Assembly: GCA_017882305.1 (NCBI GenBank) | Contig: JADGPU010000018.1 | Span: forward strand, 1-41,065 | Origin: Bacteroidales bacterium | Lineage (GTDB): Bacteria > Bacteroidota > Bacteroidia > Bacteroidales > VadinHA17 | Length of the DNA stretch: 41,065 bases | Direction: 5' to 3' | Shown: positions 20,554 to 26,581 of the stretch, one piece after another | Layout: the number at the start of each line of letters is the position of its first letter | Position numbering within the stretch: position 1 is the stretch's first letter | The notes under the pieces: generated by a model | Databases searched by the model: none | Told to the model about the DNA's origin: nothing | What the model saw: only the letters and a program-made list of their open reading frames with translations | Position numbers and translations under genes: made by a program

Positions 20554-20603
20554 AACCGCAAAGGCCTCAAAAATACTACTTTTTGTTCTCTGCGGTTTTT
20601 TTT
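20554..20603 (+). terminator. Terminator-like hairpin built from the CGCAAAG repeat family
   Basis: AACCGCA (20554-20560) pairs with TGCGGTT (20591-20597) around a 30-base arm, with a T-run to 20603. Its TTTTTAACCGCAAAGGCC opening is like the elements near 1664 and 14205, so a mobile repeat seems to have become the terminator. Confidence 0.6.
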
Positions 20604-20621
20604 AATTTTTTAACTACAAAT

Positions 20622-21158
20622 ATGTTTATCCCAAATCTTTTACTGCTTGCCGGTACCGGCACTAAGTCGGGGAAAACATCAATGGCGTGCAGGATAATTG
20701 AGCAGTTCATGAATTTAAACATTACTGCAATTAAGATAAGCCCTCATTGCCATGAGACTACTCCTGGTTTGAAAACCATTTATGAGGAAACAGGATATGC
20801 GATATATGAAGAGACAAACAGGAATACATCAAAGGACACTTCACGGATGCTCAATTCCGGGGCACATAAGGTTTACTTTGCCAAAGTCATGGATGACCGG
20901 CTGCAAATTGTTTTTGACAAAATAATGGATCTTATACCGGCAGGTACTCCGATAATATGTGAATCCCCTGCTCTGCGAAATTACATTGAACCGGGAGTAT
21001 TTATTATGATGATATCTGAAACTATCAATAAACGCAAGAATATAAATCATTTACAACATTTACCTCATGTAATGTTCAAGCTGGAAGAGCTGAATGATAT
21101 CAGGAAATTGCCTATTGAGTTTGCAGATGGTAAGTGGCATCATGATGCATCAATGTAG
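20622..21158 (+). CDS. MobB-like P-loop NTPase
   Basis: A 178-residue protein with Walker A GTGTKSGKT at residues 11-19 on a short hydrophobic strand (LLLLAGTG), then ITAIKISPHCHETTPG, KDTSRMLNSGAHKVYFAKV and IICESPALRNYIEPGVFIMM. The pattern of P-loop, histidine-rich strand and late acidic strand resembles MobB (molybdopterin-guanine dinucleotide) proteins, but similarity is weak and no other Mo-cofactor gene is near. The start at 20622 is chosen because an upstream ATG at 20583 lies within the terminator hairpin. Function is open. Confidence 0.6.
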   Translation: MFIPNLLLLAGTGTKSGKTSMACRIIEQFMNLNITAIKISPHCHETTPGLKTIYEETGYAIYEETNRNTSKDTSRMLNSGAHKVYFAKVMDDRLQIVFDKIMDLIPAGTPIICESPALRNYIEPGVFIMMISETINKRKNINHLQHLPHVMFKLEELNDIRKLPIEFADGKWHHDASM

Positions 21159-21193: not shown

Positions 21194-22021
21194 CTATTTC
21201 TCCTCATTGATATCAGCTATATCTTTTCCCAGCCTGGCTTTTATCCTTTCAAGATCATGCTTCATTCCGGCAACTGCCTGAATCAGTTGTTTTTCCGGTA
21301 ATACAGGATCGGGTAATTCACTGCTGATATAATTAACAAATTTCCAAATCTCTTTGACCTCATTTATGTGTACTTCATATGGTTCATAAACAGTATTTAG
21401 GGAATATAAAACCAGTTTACCGTCAGCTCTGATGTTGTTCTCAACCACCTTGAAAACAATTCCGTCATCCAGTGTAAATACAATATAGGCTTTACCGCTG
21501 ATTATCTGCATCCAGTCCTGGAGGTATTCCCCTGTTACCCATGAACCGTCGGGTATCGGAAGCATGGAATCACCTTTCAGCTGAAAAGTTCTGTATTTCT
21601 TTTTACTGGAAAGAAACGGTAATGTGAATACAGGAAGCTCACCGATGTATTCCGGATCGGCATATCCGGTTGTATAGCCTGCTTTAGCTTTCTCTGGCAC
21701 CAGTTCAATATTTTCCCGGTTGCTGGAATTGACGGTTGTTGTCAATACTCTGAGATTGCTTCCTCTGACGTAAGCATCATATCCTCTTTCGAGTTCACCA
21801 AGCTGACTTTCCGACAACTTTGAAATATCCAGTTTAAGGATTGTATCGATAGCAATATTAAAATAGCCGGAAAAGGATATCAGGATTTCTATCCCGGGCT
21901 GGGCAACACCGTTCTCATAACCGCTCAGGGTTGAACGTTTAAGGTTAAGGGCAAATGCCACATCATCCTGTGTTCGGCCCCTCCTTTTTCTTAAAAATTT
22001 TATGTTCGATGCAAAGTACAT
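21194..22021 (-). CDS. CI/LexA-like self-cleaving repressor (XRE HTH + S24 peptidase)
   Basis: A 275-residue repressor: XRE helix-turn-helix (about 5-62, RTQDDVAFALNLKRSTLSGYENG) and a C-terminal S24/LexA-UmuD peptidase domain (about 125-240). Self-cleavage elements are present: Ala114-Gly115 in KAKAGY, nucleophile S152 in LKGDSMLP and general-base K191 in DGIVFKVV. Such proteins cleave themselves on RecA filaments, releasing promoters after DNA damage. It diverges from dinB, and its own promoter is overlaid by two palindromes (22031-22071), so autoregulation and control of dinB-dnaE are inferred. Its XRE N-terminus separates it from true LexA. A basic/Glu-rich tail (LERIKARLGKDIADINEEK) follows the peptidase domain. 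Confidence 0.9.
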   Translation of the reverse strand: MYFASNIKFLRKRRGRTQDDVAFALNLKRSTLSGYENGVAQPGIEILISFSGYFNIAIDTILKLDISKLSESQLGELERGYDAYVRGSNLRVLTTTVNSSNRENIELVPEKAKAGYTTGYADPEYIGELPVFTLPFLSSKKKYRTFQLKGDSMLPIPDGSWVTGEYLQDWMQIISGKAYIVFTLDDGIVFKVVENNIRADGKLVLYSLNTVYEPYEVHINEVKEIWKFVNYISSELPDPVLPEKQLIQAVAGMKHDLERIKARLGKDIADINEEK

Positions 22022-22030
22022 AATGAAAAT

Positions 22031-22047
22031 TGATTATATTGTAATCA
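22031..22047. promoter_or_regulatory. Repressor operator 1 (TGATTA-N5-TAATCA)
   Basis: TGATTA at 22031-22036 and TAATCA at 22042-22047 form a perfect 6-bp inverted repeat around TATTG. It lies 9 bases upstream of the repressor ATG, inside the likely leader, and is 23 bp from operator 2. Confidence 0.75.
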
Positions 22048-22052
22048 GTAAG

Positions 22053-22071
22053 TTGATTAATTTCTAATCAA
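22053..22071. promoter_or_regulatory. Repressor operator 2 (TTGATTA-N5-TAATCAA)
   Basis: A perfect 7-bp inverted repeat around ATTTC. It covers the predicted transcription start and overlaps the end of the -7 box of the repressor promoter, the classical place for autorepression. Confidence 0.78.
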
Positions 22072-22100
22072 AAGTAAAACTTAATTGTTATATATGCAAG
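22069..22100 (-). promoter_or_regulatory. Promoter of the S24 repressor gene
   Basis: On the minus strand: CTTG (22100-22097), 20 bases, TACTTTTG (22076-22069), a good match to the Bacteroidota consensus. It overlaps operator 2 by three bases. Confidence 0.7.
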
Positions 22101-22135
22101 AAATGTGAAATATTTTTTAAATAATTCGGACTAGG

Positions 22136-22267
22136 GAGTTGGAGATTGCTTTGCTTCGCTCGCAATGACGGTGCAGGTAAGCATATTTCAGGTTGGGAGC
22201 TTAACCGAAGTTAGTAAAAGCCACAGTCATTGCGAGAAGCGAAGCGACGAAGCAATCTCACCATCCC
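22136..22267. repeat. MITE-like inverted repeat between operators and dinB
   Basis: Left arm GAGATTGCTTTGCTTCGC...GCAATGAC (22142-22169) is an imperfect reverse complement of the right arm GTCATTGCGAG...GCAATCTC (22226-22259), with about 56 bases between. The right arm has 6 extra bases. The arms belong to the widespread AGATTGCTTCG...GCAATGAC repeat type. No coding capacity. Confidence 0.85.
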
Positions 22268-22291
22268 AGTACGACTATTAAAATTTACATT

Positions 22292-23560
22292 ATGATCCTC
22301 TCCGGCACTATAGACCGATCAGTTCTGCACCTCGACCTCGATACTTTTTTTGTATCGGTTGAGAGGCTTAAGAACAGCCGCCTGAATGGTAAGCCGGTTA
22401 TAATAGGTGGTATGTCGGACCGGGGAGTGGTATCGAGCTGCAGCTATGAGGCACGTAAGTACGGTGTAAGCTCCGCTATGCCGATGAAAATGGCCAGGAA
22501 TATGTGTCCCGATGCCATTGTTATAAGAGGCGACATGGAGCTTTACAGCAACTATTCAAACATAGTGACCGGCATAATTGCCGAAAGGGCACCACTATAT
22601 GAGAAAGCATCTGTTGATGAACACTACATCGATCTCACCGGAATGGACCGTTTCTACGGATGCTACAAATGGTCGCATGAATTGCGCCAGTATATAATTA
22701 AAGAGACAGGCCTGCCTATATCAATCGGACTTTCAGTCAATAAGACCGTATCAAAAATAGCAACCGGCGAGGCAAAGCCAAACGGAGAAATAGAGGTTCA
22801 AAAAGAGATTGTGCTTCCGTTCCTCGATCCGCTTTCGATAAGAAAAATACCAATGATCGGTCAGAAGACTTATCAGGTGCTCCGCTCGATGGGGATTGCT
22901 ACAATTTATACCCTGAGGAATATCCCTGTTGAGATGCTTGAAAAATTAATGGGTAAAAATGGTATTGAAATGTGGAAGAGAGCCAATGGCATCGACTCTA
23001 CTCCCGTCATCAGCTATTCGGAACAGAAATCGATAAGTACCGAACATACTTTCGAAAAAGATACCACCGACCTGTTGAGGTTGAATCAGCTGTTGGTAAG
23101 CATGGTGGAGAAGATTGCGTTCGAGCTGAGAAAACAGGAGAAACTCACTTCATGCATTACTGTCAAGATAAGGTATTCTAACTTCGATACCCATACACTG
23201 CAGAAACGAATACCATATACATCATTTGACCATGTTCTTGCCGATATCACCAAAGAGCTCTTTGCCAGACTCTACCAGAGACGTATGCTTATCAGACTTA
23301 TTGGTGTAAGGTTCAGCCATATGGTAAGAGGAGTCCAGCAGCTTGACATGTTTGACGATACTCCTGAAAAGGTCAGCCTGTATATGGCAATGGACAGGAT
23401 CAGGAAGCGTTTCGGGCGAAATGCGGTCAGGAGAGCTTCCGGAGTGATGACGGTAAGTGAAAAAGAAGAAAAAGCCCTTAAACAGCTTGAAAATGCCGTT
23501 AATGAGCAGAATATGATGGAGGAACGGCTTAAGAAGTATATGATGTATGGAGGAAGGTAA
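22292..23560 (+). CDS. dinB: Y-family translesion DNA polymerase (DinB/UmuC type)
   Basis: Error-prone polymerase that copies past damaged bases. The 422-residue product retains catalytic residues: D15 and D17 in HLDLDTFF, D109-E110 in ASVDEHYIDL, with F20 at the steric gate. A beta-clamp motif QQLDMF lies at residues 349-354. The C-terminal DRIRKRFGRNAVRRASG recalls UmuC/DinB ends and is followed by a charged, possibly coiled-coil tail. Because the acidic triad is intact, it is not an inactive ImuB. It faces the S24 repressor and precedes dnaE by 84 bases, so the pair is probably one damage-inducible transcript. No clear promoter of its own was found; a repeat lies in the leader. Confidence 0.93.
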   Translation: MILSGTIDRSVLHLDLDTFFVSVERLKNSRLNGKPVIIGGMSDRGVVSSCSYEARKYGVSSAMPMKMARNMCPDAIVIRGDMELYSNYSNIVTGIIAERAPLYEKASVDEHYIDLTGMDRFYGCYKWSHELRQYIIKETGLPISIGLSVNKTVSKIATGEAKPNGEIEVQKEIVLPFLDPLSIRKIPMIGQKTYQVLRSMGIATIYTLRNIPVEMLEKLMGKNGIEMWKRANGIDSTPVISYSEQKSISTEHTFEKDTTDLLRLNQLLVSMVEKIAFELRKQEKLTSCITVKIRYSNFDTHTLQKRIPYTSFDHVLADITKELFARLYQRRMLIRLIGVRFSHMVRGVQQLDMFDDTPEKVSLYMAMDRIRKRFGRNAVRRASGVMTVSEKEEKALKQLENAVNEQNMMEERLKKYMMYGGR

Positions 23561-23644
23561 AAAGGCAACGGGCGGCAGGCAACAGGCGACAGGGAAAAAA
23601 GACAAAAGTAATAAAATACCTGACGCCTGACGCCACAAAAGAAT
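23561..23644. repeat. Low-complexity GGCAACAGGCGACAGG/GACGCCTGACGCC spacer
   Basis: The dinB-dnaE spacer holds related words GGCGGCAGGCAACAGGCGACAGGG and, near its end, CTGACGCCTGACGCC, which are partly complementary. It looks like debris of another intergenic repeat; no gene or terminator with T-run is seen. Confidence 0.5.
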
Positions 23645-26581
23645 ATGTACCTTAATTGTCACTCATATTACAGTCTCCGCTACGGAACCATGTCCGTTGA
23701 ACAGCTTGTGCAGAAAGCTCTGGCTGCCGGGACAGATACTATTGTTCTCACTGATATTAACAACTCAACGGGAATTCCGGAATTTGCAGGCGAATGCAGC
23801 AAAAACAATATCAGGCCTGTTGCTGGCATAGAATTCAGAAATGACAATGAACTTCAGTATATCGGGATTGCACGTAATAACAGAGGTTTGCAGGAGTTGA
23901 ATGAATTTCTTTCGGATCTGAATTTCAACAAGTCATCAATTCCCTTTCCGGCACCTCAATTCTCAGAATCGTATATAATATATTCCCTTAAGAAAATTCC
24001 ATCGCGGAAACTATTTGATAATGAACGCATAGGAATAAGACTACACGAATTAAACAGTCTGTTGACACTGACTCTGTCATTAAACAGGAATACTATGGTT
24101 ATACTGCAACCGGTCACATTTGCAGAGACAGATGACATTTTTATTCACAGAAGTCTCAGGGCTGTTGACAACAATATTCTCCTGAGTCACCTGCTGCAAT
24201 GGCAGTGCGCCGGAGAAGATGAATTTTTCAAAAATACTGCCGATTTTGAAAAAATCATGAAAGAATACCCATGGTTAACAAGTAATACAAAAAAGCTCCT
24301 GGATGATTGTAATTTACAGTTTGATCGTGAAAGTCTTAAAAACAAAAAGATCTATTCAGCCAGTAGATATGATGACAAGCTGCTTCTCGAAAAACTCGCC
24401 TGGGACGGAATGATATACAGGTATGGCAGGCAGAATAATGAGGCAAAGAAAAGGGTAAAGCATGAACTTGAGATAATCGACAGGCTTGGTTTTTCTGCCT
24501 ACTTTCTGATAACATGGGACATCGTAAGATATTCAATGGCCCGTGGTTTTTACCATGTTGGTCGTGGAAGCGGCGCAAATTCGGTTGTTGCTTATTGCCT
24601 GAAAATCACCAATGTTGACCCTATTGATCTAAACCTTTACTTCGAAAGATTCATTAATCCGAAACGAAGCAGTCCTCCCGACTTCGATATAGATTATTCC
24701 TGGAAAGAGCGGGACGAGGTCATCGATTATATTTTCAAGCGATATGGTTATGGGCATACCGCACTGCTTGGCACTATGAGCACCTTCAGGGGTAAGTCGA
24801 TCGTACGTGAACTCGGTAAGGTATATGGTTTGCCCAAGGAAGAGATTGATTCGCTTATTGATAATCCTTCCGCAGAGACAAACCGGAATGAGATAACCAA
24901 TCTTATTTTCTCAACTGGCCTGAAGATCGCTGACTTTCCAAATATACGGAGTATCCATGCCGGGGGTATACTCATCTCCGAAGATCCTATTACCTGTTAC
25001 ACCGCTCTCGATATGCCTCCGAAAGGTTTTCCGACCACCCAGTGGGATATGTACACCGCCGAAGAGATTGGCTTTGAGAAACTCGACATTCTGAGCCAGC
25101 GGGGAATTGGCCATATCCGCGAGAGTGCGGAAATAATTCTGCGTAACCGTGGTATCGATGTTGATGTTCATACAGTACAGAAATTTAAGAACGATGAAAA
25201 GGTAAAAGAGTATCTGAAGATCGGTGAAACAAAAGGATGCTTCTATATTGAAAGTCCTGCGATGCGCGGCCTTCTGAAAAAGCTGAGATGCGATAACTAC
25301 ACTACTCTTGTGGCTGCCAGTTCTGTGATAAGGCCAGGTGTTGCACGTTCCGGCATGATGAAAGAATATATTTACAGGTTCCATAATCCGGGAAAATTCG
25401 AATATATACATCCGGTTATGAAGGAACAGCTTGAAGAGACATTCGGTGTTATGGTCTACCAGGAAGATGTTCTGAAAGTCTGTCATCACTTTGCAGGATT
25501 GGATCTTTCTGATGCTGATACCCTGCGCCGGGCTATGAGTGGTAAATACCGGTCAAAACAGGAGATGCAACGTATTATTGAAAGGTTCTTCTCAAACTGC
25601 CGCGAAAAGGGCTACAGCGATGAGGTCACAAAAGAGGTATGGAGACAGATTGAATCTTTTGCCGGGTATTCGTTCTCTAAAGCCCATTCTGCGTCATATG
25701 CCGTTGAAAGCTTCCAGAGTCTTTATCTTAAAGCGCATTATCCGCTTGAGTTCATGGTAGCTGTTATAAATAACTTTGGAGGTTTTTACAGGACCTGGGT
25801 TTATGTACATGAAGCAAGAAGGTGCGGAGCAACTATTCAGCTACCGTGTGTGAACAAGAGCAATTATAAGACAACGATATATGACACAGATATATACATT
25901 GGCTTCATTCATATTATGAGCCTTGAATACAAGCTTGCACAGTCAATTGAAGAGTTACGCAATGCAGAAGGCCCCTTCTCCGATCTGAACGATTTTGTTA
26001 CCAGGGTAAATCCCGGACTTGAGCAGGTAATTCTTCTTATAAAAGCAGGGGCATTCAGATTTACGGGAAAGAAGAAGGCTGTTCTTTTATGGGAAGCTCA
26101 TATGATGATAAACAAAAACAAACCGGATAATATTCGTCCACTCTTCTCCTCTCCTGTCCGTAATTTCTCACTTCCCGATCTTGTTCAGGGAAAGATCGAA
26201 GATGTATATGATGAAATCGAACTCTTCGGTTTTCCTGTCACAATGAGCTGGTTCGATATGCTTGAAACATCTTTCCGCGGCGAAGTATCTGCAAGAAGGA
26301 TGAGCGAATATACCGGAAGGAAAATCAGGATGGTCGGACACCTGGTTACCATAAAGTATATCAAAACAATAAAAAATGACTGGATGAATTTTGGATGCTT
26401 TATAGATGCTGAAGGTAATTTCTTTGATACAACCCATTTCTCTCAATCTCTTAAAAACTGGCCTTTTAAAGGAAGCGGCACATATCTGATCCTTGGAAAA
26501 GTCGTCGAAGAGTTTGGGTTTCCTTCACTTGAGGTAGAGAAAATGGCAAAACTTCCTGTCAAACCCGATCAGAGGTATTGA
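23645..26581 (+). CDS. Short DnaE-type DNA polymerase III alpha (DnaE2/ImuC-like)
   Basis: C-family polymerase, 978 residues, clearly shorter than the replicative DnaE. The polymerase core is complete: PPDFDID with D348 and D350, third aspartate D481 in KLDIL, GRGSGANSVVAY and a C-terminal OB-fold region (RKIRMVGHLVTIKYIK). The N-terminal PHP domain is degraded: the opening H-x-H is NCHS (residues 4-7), and the TDH motif reads LTDINN, so metal-dependent proofreading is unlikely. The C-terminal tau-binding part of replicative DnaE seems missing. Encoded directly behind dinB and under a self-cleaving repressor, it fits an error-prone partner polymerase. Its last 23 bases overlap the convergent rel gene. 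Confidence 0.88.
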   Translation: MYLNCHSYYSLRYGTMSVEQLVQKALAAGTDTIVLTDINNSTGIPEFAGECSKNNIRPVAGIEFRNDNELQYIGIARNNRGLQELNEFLSDLNFNKSSIPFPAPQFSESYIIYSLKKIPSRKLFDNERIGIRLHELNSLLTLTLSLNRNTMVILQPVTFAETDDIFIHRSLRAVDNNILLSHLLQWQCAGEDEFFKNTADFEKIMKEYPWLTSNTKKLLDDCNLQFDRESLKNKKIYSASRYDDKLLLEKLAWDGMIYRYGRQNNEAKKRVKHELEIIDRLGFSAYFLITWDIVRYSMARGFYHVGRGSGANSVVAYCLKITNVDPIDLNLYFERFINPKRSSPPDFDIDYSWKERDEVIDYIFKRYGYGHTALLGTMSTFRGKSIVRELGKVYGLPKEEIDSLIDNPSAETNRNEITNLIFSTGLKIADFPNIRSIHAGGILISEDPITCYTALDMPPKGFPTTQWDMYTAEEIGFEKLDILSQRGIGHIRESAEIILRNRGIDVDVHTVQKFKNDEKVKEYLKIGETKGCFYIESPAMRGLLKKLRCDNYTTLVAASSVIRPGVARSGMMKEYIYRFHNPGKFEYIHPVMKEQLEETFGVMVYQEDVLKVCHHFAGLDLSDADTLRRAMSGKYRSKQEMQRIIERFFSNCREKGYSDEVTKEVWRQIESFAGYSFSKAHSASYAVESFQSLYLKAHYPLEFMVAVINNFGGFYRTWVYVHEARRCGATIQLPCVNKSNYKTTIYDTDIYIGFIHIMSLEYKLAQSIEELRNAEGPFSDLNDFVTRVNPGLEQVILLIKAGAFRFTGKKKAVLLWEAHMMINKNKPDNIRPLFSSPVRNFSLPDLVQGKIEDVYDEIELFGFPVTMSWFDMLETSFRGEVSARRMSEYTGRKIRMVGHLVTIKYIKTIKNDWMNFGCFIDAEGNFFDTTHFSQSLKNWPFKGSGTYLILGKVVEEFGFPSLEVEKMAKLPVKPDQRY

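Follow-up and report, generated by a model that had tools for sequence, protein, structure and literature searches.

The 41,065-nucleotide stretch of a Bacteroidales genome analysed here (contig JADGPU010000018.1 of assembly GCA_017882305.1, hereafter the window) contains, between positions 21194 and 26581, a repressor gene that diverges from two DNA polymerase genes, polY and dnaE. Our results indicate that this locus is probably a single-locus mutagenesis switch of the SOS type, made of the repressor, tandem operators, the polY-dnaE2 pair and a RecA-triggered release. It is probably a DNA-damage switch of a kind already known in related bacteria; what is new at this locus is its carriage by Bacteroidales, a different operator (GATTA-N5-TAATC, often in tandem) and the restriction of the exact full form of this operator to one locus. 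The branch of regulators to which the repressor belongs appears to use its own operator, and in this genome its control appears confined to the repressor's locus.

Repressor and tandem operators

The repressor (275 aa; 21194..22021, minus strand) combines an XRE/CI-type helix-turn-helix (HTH) with an S24 peptidase domain (Pfam HTH_3, E 9e-13; Peptidase_S24, E 2.9e-6). The self-cleavage residues listed in a first-pass annotation of this DNA, the Ala114-Gly115 site, Ser152 and Lys191, are all present and nearly invariant among 225 distinct homologous repressors (alanine in 224, glycine in 221, serine and lysine in all 225). In the AlphaFold model (pLDDT 84.4, pTM 0.60), which is the second one computed and the only one used, a model from 15 sequences (pLDDT 43.3) having been set aside, the C-terminal domain resembles LexA (Z 13.4) and the N-terminal domain P22 c2 (Z 9.9, rmsd 1.5 over 65 residues), with five helices in residues 3-63. 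An extra C-terminal helix, residues 243-274, extends beyond the S24 fold. As modelled, the repressor pairs a CI-like HTH with a LexA-like S24 domain. A sequence search of the PDB with the repressor profile returned matches to HTH domains only. A reading as a defence system was rejected, as the PADLOC matches of the repressor span the HTH only and the other three proteins given gave no match. In several homologues (L019, L025, L035 and other matches from the order), the repressor frame contains an in-frame stop in the assembly, which suggests occasional loss of the repressor or an assembly error.

Two perfect TGATTA-N5-TAATCA dyads lie at a distance of 23 bp in the repressor-polY intergenic region of the window: O2 (22031..22047), nearer the repressor start and kept in relatives, and O1 (22054..22070). 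They are the only two copies of this 12-base motif in the 3.45-Mb genome (186 contigs, 92% complete), the reversed control giving none. Upstream of homologues with at least 50% identity, 164 distinct regions were compared: 99 have an exact GATTA-N5-TAATC no more than 150 bp from the start and 117 an exact or one-mismatch form, against 5 exact occurrences in 8200 mononucleotide shuffles. When only repressor-polY intergenic regions are considered, the exact motif is present in 50 of 70 from the order sample (shuffles, 1/3500) and in 62 of 68 from named contigs (5/3400), two sets that overlap by at least eight named loci with the same repressor as an order-sample locus. The spacing between successive operators is 23 bp in 48 of 50 pairs and 24 bp in the other two.

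The operators are closely associated with the repressor's own promoter. In the window, a regex scan revealed a putative promoter TTG-N20-TACTTTTG (22069..22099, minus strand), built on what we take to be the Bacteroidota promoter consensus, whose -7 element at 22069-22076 shares 2 bp with O1. A TAnnTTTG -7 element running into the operator and facing the repressor accompanies 33/66 sites in the order sample and 48/96 in the named one, whereas only 1/66 and 11/96 have such an element facing polY. The layout TTG-N17..23-TAnnTTTGATTA is kept in 14/14 of the closest intergenic regions, the window among them. In these closest kin, the repressor's promoter/operator module is the best-conserved part of the intergenic region, the polY side being variable and broken by repeats. 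In the window, a 156-base stretch between the operators and polY (22120..22275) holds a dispersed inverted repeat (REP/MITE-like), with nine further partial matches at eight places in the genome. This stretch is absent from the 93-97 bp intergenic regions of three relatives (L062, L070, L081). Different inserts occupy the repressor-polY interval of near relatives.

The polymerase pair and its conservation

Opposite the repressor, polY (22292..23560, plus strand) encodes a Y-family polymerase of 422 aa (Pfam IMS and IMS_C) that reaches 281 bits with the DNA polymerase IV model PRK02406 (cut-off 256). Its Asp15, Asp109 and Glu110 are kept in 142/142 distinct sequences; we assume these, and the aspartates of DnaE named below, to be catalytic from what is known of E. 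coli DinB and DnaE. The motif QQLDMF (residues 349-354; 23336..23353, plus strand), presumably of the beta-clamp-binding type, keeps its second glutamine in 141 and its phenylalanine in 140 of the 142 aligned PolYs. Slightly downstream, about residues 362-381 (23375..23434, plus strand), lies a stretch resembling the RecA N-terminus (RecA-NT). A RecA-NT profile run over 176 PolY sequences (the same 142 distinct ones) matched 114 of them, with the best match at this stretch in 112; taken singly, the matches are weak.

After a gap of 84 bp, dnaE (23645..26581, plus strand) encodes a short DnaE2-type polymerase of 978 aa with the Pfam domains PHP, DNA_pol3_alpha, finger and HHH_6. It scores 523 with the polc superfamily model (cut-off 434) and 474 with the 'error-prone DNA polymerase' subfamily model, which is under the cut-off of 939, and its Asp348, Asp350 and Asp481 are kept in 90/90 sequences. 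In our DnaE tree, the protein belongs to a 22-row clade (support 100/100) together with DnaE linked to PolY in Emticicia, Chryseobacterium, Adhaeribacter and Bacteroidales, separate from the ImuA/B-linked DnaE2 and from DnaE1; the Desulfosarcina and DnaE1 rows of this tree have long branches, and published DnaE2B references lie outside it. A PolY tree was left unused because its outgroup rows were very long-branched and the genome's own DinB was placed unreliably.

These data agree with the first-pass description of an active-site-intact Y-family polymerase, live in the place of ImuB, followed by a DnaE with intact aspartates. No ImuB-like and no recognisable ImuA gene is present at the locus, where the claim of a cassette lacking ImuA thus stands. 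At the scale of the genome, ImuA is likely absent: its profile matched only RecA, below the cut-off, a result qualified by the incompleteness of the assembly and by a weak positive control, as no control genome came above the cut-off either. Two ImuA and two ImuB queries found no match in 150 neighbourhood records, which is a modest test given how few and distant these queries are. Besides the locus PolY, the Y-family profile PF00817 detects one protein in the genome, a 354-aa DinB, both having an intact active site. The genome also carries a second DnaE of 1161 aa and a single recA.

Such a pair is not without precedent. Timinskas and Venclovas (PMC6511836) described in Bacteroidetes a PolY2 and a DnaE2, two apparently active polymerases with neither ImuB-C nor ImuA; a DnaE2B-PolY-RecA combination is named in Bacteroidetes (PMC12926913), and a reduction of the PHP and thumb domains is reported mainly for the DnaE2 of Bacteroidetes (PMC3919608). 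The window shares with PolY2 and DnaE2 the adjoining active-type polymerases, the lack of ImuA/ImuB at the locus and the shortened DnaE2, its PolY has a candidate RecA-NT-like stretch at the corresponding place, and we see no difference in the polymerases themselves; the S24 regulator is not named in the passages of PMC6511836 and PMC12926913 considered here. With the ImuA-ImuB-DnaE2 mutasome, the window locus has in common a damage-type repressor accompanied by a Y-family protein and an additional DnaE, but it is without ImuA, its Y-polymerase is live instead of a dead ImuB, and its DnaE2 belongs to another clade.

The arrangement is conserved well beyond the window. A repressor homologue (E <= 1e-20) was found in 128 of the 295 order genomes searched and in 80 of 395 genomes sampled across the phylum, own genome included in both; ten order genomes with partial or fragmentary matches (G037, G038, G052, G062, G069, G082, G164, G176, G238 and G275) were left out. 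From the order, 100 genomes whose match reached at least about 50% identity were fetched, 90 of which could be assessed upstream of the repressor and 78 for the triple. A divergent polY lies within 2.5 kb in 69/90 (within 300 bp in 43), and the complete repressor-polY-dnaE triple is found in 43/78, which answers the search of Bacteroidota genomes for a conserved neighbourhood that the first-pass annotation had proposed. The proportions rise to 61/63 and 40/42 in the 80 nearest named contigs, a biased and close set, and are 3/20 and 2/17 among 20 order loci of lower identity.

The same divergent triad is carried by plasmids of Emticicia oligotrophica and Chryseobacterium shandongense, the repressor of the latter being annotated as 'LexA family'. 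Since these plasmids (L345 and L346) are typed in PLSDB as conjugative (Emticicia) and mobilizable (Chryseobacterium), the arrangement may travel. Adhaeribacter swui has the order SRAP-dinB-dnaE. On a Dyadobacter plasmid (L356, 779-7167), a repressor of the family (43% identity) is divergent from a true ImuA-ImuB-DnaE2 cassette, so that both kinds of mutagenesis cassette are found next to regulators of one family.

Relation to non-canonical LexA regulators

In Bacteroidetes, non-canonical S24 'LexA' proteins have been reported by Sanchez-Osuna et al. (2021; PMC8565304, whose relevant passages are the source of all comparisons with this family) to control dinB-dnaE operons, partly by prediction. 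They govern multi-gene regulons; dinB, often in operon with dnaE, dominates the predicted GGA-N5-TCC network, and mitomycin C induces the E. anophelis regulator of this family together with the opposite error-prone polymerase. In that survey of complete genomes, both groups of non-canonical regulators were reported absent from the order Bacteroidales. Since both this family of repressors, with the control of dinB-dnaE predicted for it, and the two active polymerases without ImuA (PMC6511836, PMC12926913) are in print for Bacteroidota, the opposition drawn in the first-pass annotation between cassettes of other phyla and a Bacteroidota version does not hold as a novelty.

The window repressor shares with the non-canonical LexA proteins (PMC8565304) a CI-type HTH (PF01381) in place of a winged HTH, the Ala-Gly and Ser-Lys residues of the S24 domain, the extra C-terminal helix, a palindromic operator with a fixed 5-bp spacer at its own promoter (binding being predicted) and, as in E. 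anophelis, an opposite error-prone polymerase. It differs by the operator arms, which are GATTA/TAATC here and GGA/TCC, CTAA/TTAG or TTAC/GTAA there, by sites that are often in tandem 23 bp apart, by exact full-form sites at one locus in this genome, and by its carriers, which are Bacteroidales, although the taxonomy of that survey may differ from the one of our genome sample. Accordingly, none of GGA-N5-TCC, CTAA-N5-TTAG and TTAC-N5-GTAA is present in the window intergenic region (22022-22291).

This difference in operators holds across the branch. Within 200 bp upstream of its regulators, GATTA-N5-TAATC is found in 49/100 (order) and 60/74 (named) cases, CTAA-N5-TTAG in 0/100 and 0/74, and GGA-N5-TCC in 2/100 and 0/74. 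Conversely, homologues at 35-48% identity show CTAA-N5-TTAG in 8/20 and 15/29 cases (23/49; shuffles, 3/1000 and 12/1450) and the GATTA form in 0/49. The GATTA and CTAA operators are mutually exclusive between branches. In an 82-row repressor tree, the CTAA label requires 6 changes against 20.3 when shuffled (0/500 as low), and it is borne by none of the 34 rows on the window side. Kinship with the published clusters was judged through these homologues at 35-48% identity, 23 of which bear CTAA, the named reference proteins being outside the comparison. Since the architecture is the same, including the extra C-terminal helix, and the operator is that of neither defined cluster, we regard the window repressor as a probable third branch of the non-canonical LexA proteins, centred on Bacteroidales. 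This would extend the family to a large order (128/295 genomes) that the 2021 survey listed as without it, and provides a concrete, testable operator. No report of a GATTA-N5-TAATC operator, or of such regulators in Bacteroidales, was found in the open-licence literature, leaving aside the supplementary tables of PMC8565304, which hold further diverged palindromes.

CTAA-N5-TTAG was also observed upstream of regulators in some genomes of the same order (L041, L042, L045, L047-L050 and L052), at odds with the published absence from Bacteroidales, and here as well the taxonomies may differ. Outside Bacteroidota, FddR of Francisella (PMC13148647) and HdiR of Streptococcaceae (PMC8565304) are likewise phage-like S24 repressors with a compact SOS-like network, and autoregulation combined with control of divergent genes is described for FddR (PMC13148647). 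Unlike the present case, their S24 clade is, according to these sources, not that of the Bacteroidetes regulators.

Proposed mechanism, regulon reach and alternative explanations

In the mechanism that we propose, a repressor dimer would bind the two tandem GATTA-N5-TAATC operators ahead of polY. The distal operator touching the -7 element of the repressor's own promoter, this binding would result in autorepression, and the divergent polY-dnaE2 pair is most probably repressed as well. Upon DNA damage, RecA filaments would stimulate self-cleavage at Ala114-Gly115 through Ser152 and Lys191, as the conserved residues and the fold suggest, and both transcripts would be released. PolY, with its clamp motif and probable RecA-binding stretch, may then perform translesion synthesis together with DnaE2 and RecA, replacing ImuA-ImuB-DnaE2 as expected from the published PolY2/DnaE2B group. 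From the first-pass proposal of an SOS mutasome under a CI-like local repressor, what stands is the CI-like HTH with its LexA-like S24 domain, the conserved triple and an operator found in exact full form only here; inducibility, RecA-stimulated cleavage and the assembly of a physical mutasome are what we infer for this branch.

Several observations weigh against this interpretation. The support for this branch comes from sequence and model, with expression, binding and cleavage inferred from them. The N-domain Z, about 10, is not beyond what small helical domains can attain through a common arrangement, and the RecA-NT motif is weak in the window PolY (E 0.17; 92/2000 shuffles as high in a pairwise comparison). 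The exact operator is missing in 65 of the 164 distinct upstream regions, 47 of which have none even with one mismatch allowed. It is in the window's own genome that direct control of polY is least certain, because the dispersed repeat lies within the 221 bp that separate O1 from polY and because a regex scan of the intergenic region found no TAnnTTTG element toward polY. A polY without dnaE in the stretch seen was recorded in 16 of the 78 relatives assessable for the triple, and a repressor without nearby divergent polY in 21/90. Finally, the separation of the branch in the repressor tree is only moderately supported (86/81), and the plasmid regulators of Emticicia, Chryseobacterium, Dyadobacter and Runella carry none of the four operator motifs (0/4).

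How far the regulon reaches is a related question. The genome's own recA has no operator under 3 mismatches in the 300 bp upstream, unlike in a classical SOS regulon, a point that counts against an SOS assignment but equally against a wide canonical network (recA, uvr, ssb and others) run through degenerate sites, with this locus merely its strongest target. We consider such a network unlikely. Multi-gene regulons of the published family (PMC8565304) would speak for it, as would the 461 sites at up to two mismatches in this genome against 213 in the reversed control, figures to which we attach no interpretation, and an exact operator 45 bp upstream of recA in carrier G042, the sole exact site of that genome, whose repressor has no adjoining polY. 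Against it, the second dinB has no close site, none of the 15 inspected among 18 one-mismatch sites in the window's genome is convincingly ahead of a recognisable repair gene, and the recA promoters of the other 29 of 30 chosen carriers have neither an exact nor a one-mismatch site. As shuffles of these promoters gave 70/3000 with at most one mismatch, a one-mismatch site is expected by chance and an exact one hardly. At the sequence level, control of a canonical multi-gene SOS network thus finds no counterpart in the genome, where exact full-form sites occur at the locus only. Of the 179 exact sites counted over the 100 fetched carriers, 71 lie inside the repressor regions retrieved, which total 736 kb; 57 genomes have at least one site there, and 26 have all of theirs there.

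It is quite unlikely that the repressor senses a signal other than damage, or mainly regulates itself, with the polymerases only loosely coupled to it. The relatives lacking a nearby divergent polY and the better conservation of the repressor's module than of the repeat-interrupted polY side in closest kin would fit such a loose coupling; they are countered by the conserved divergence from polY, by the cleavage site and dyad intact in nearly all members, and by the damage induction published for homologues (PMC8565304). Besides, the alternative neighbour is itself of the SOS type: in three relatives of one family, a SRAP (SOS-response-associated peptidase) gene replaces polY opposite the repressor, and the same tandem operators separate the two genes (L199:5051-5701, L202:5069-5710 and L232:2169-2819; the frame of one of the three repressors is shortened to 209 aa). 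These loci would link the operator to DNA-damage genes without showing damage control. A prophage or plasmid repressor with the polymerases as mobile-element cargo, as the CI-like HTH and the related triads on the Emticicia and Chryseobacterium plasmids could suggest, is very improbable, since the genes that surround the locus in the window are of an ordinary chromosomal kind (SRP54-type GTPase, radical-SAM/TRAM protein, Clp ATPase, gyrase A, TypA/BipA and RelA/SpoT), only three phage records match, all partially (31-37% identity over the S24 part), and a homologue is so common in genomes of the order. Hardly conceivable is a standard ImuA-ImuB-DnaE2 cassette from which ImuA was lost or displaced: functional analogy and the true cassette facing the Dyadobacter repressor would favour it, but the PolY active site is intact, the DnaE sits in the fully supported PolY-linked clade, and the ImuA and ImuB queries of the neighbourhood records, modest as that test is, were without match.

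Within the preferred reading of a single-locus mutagenesis switch, a more specific scenario is conceivable, with slightly less than even odds. The third branch may have its own tandem operator code, with a regulon shrunk in many lineages to one mutagenesis locus, a 'private SOS' in which recA and accurate repair would be constitutive, only error-prone synthesis inducible, and two live polymerases would share the bypass. In this respect, the locus is a candidate for a naturally occurring SOS-type switch reduced to mutagenesis, in which one could study what makes SOS regulators change their operators and what the minimal size of such a regulon is. The locus also connects the PolY-DnaE2 pair of polymerases with a specific regulator in uncultured Bacteroidales of the environment.

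Some minor observations complete this picture. A one-mismatch site 267 bp before a RuvC-like ORF (named by eye) in the window's genome was rejected, as it lies inside the preceding ORF. Carrier G110 has 15 exact TGATTA-N5-TAATCA sites (L313, L323, L329-L339) against none in the reversed control, including one tandem pair with 23-bp spacing (C79) away from the repressor locus; one of these sites precedes the gene ahead of a UvrB-like ORF (named by eye). As a set, the extra sites are not before recognisable repair genes, and an expansion of the G110 regulon was not counted as evidence; the extra sites inspected in G117 and G172 gave nothing clearer. Apart from the repressor, the only S24 match in the window's genome is weak and belongs to a 163-aa protein, in our reading unlike a repressor. 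Downstream of the repressor, a 191-aa ORF (20583-21158) has no match in Pfam, NCBIfam or PADLOC, and at the other end of the locus, the convergent RelA/SpoT gene overlaps the end of dnaE by 23 bp.

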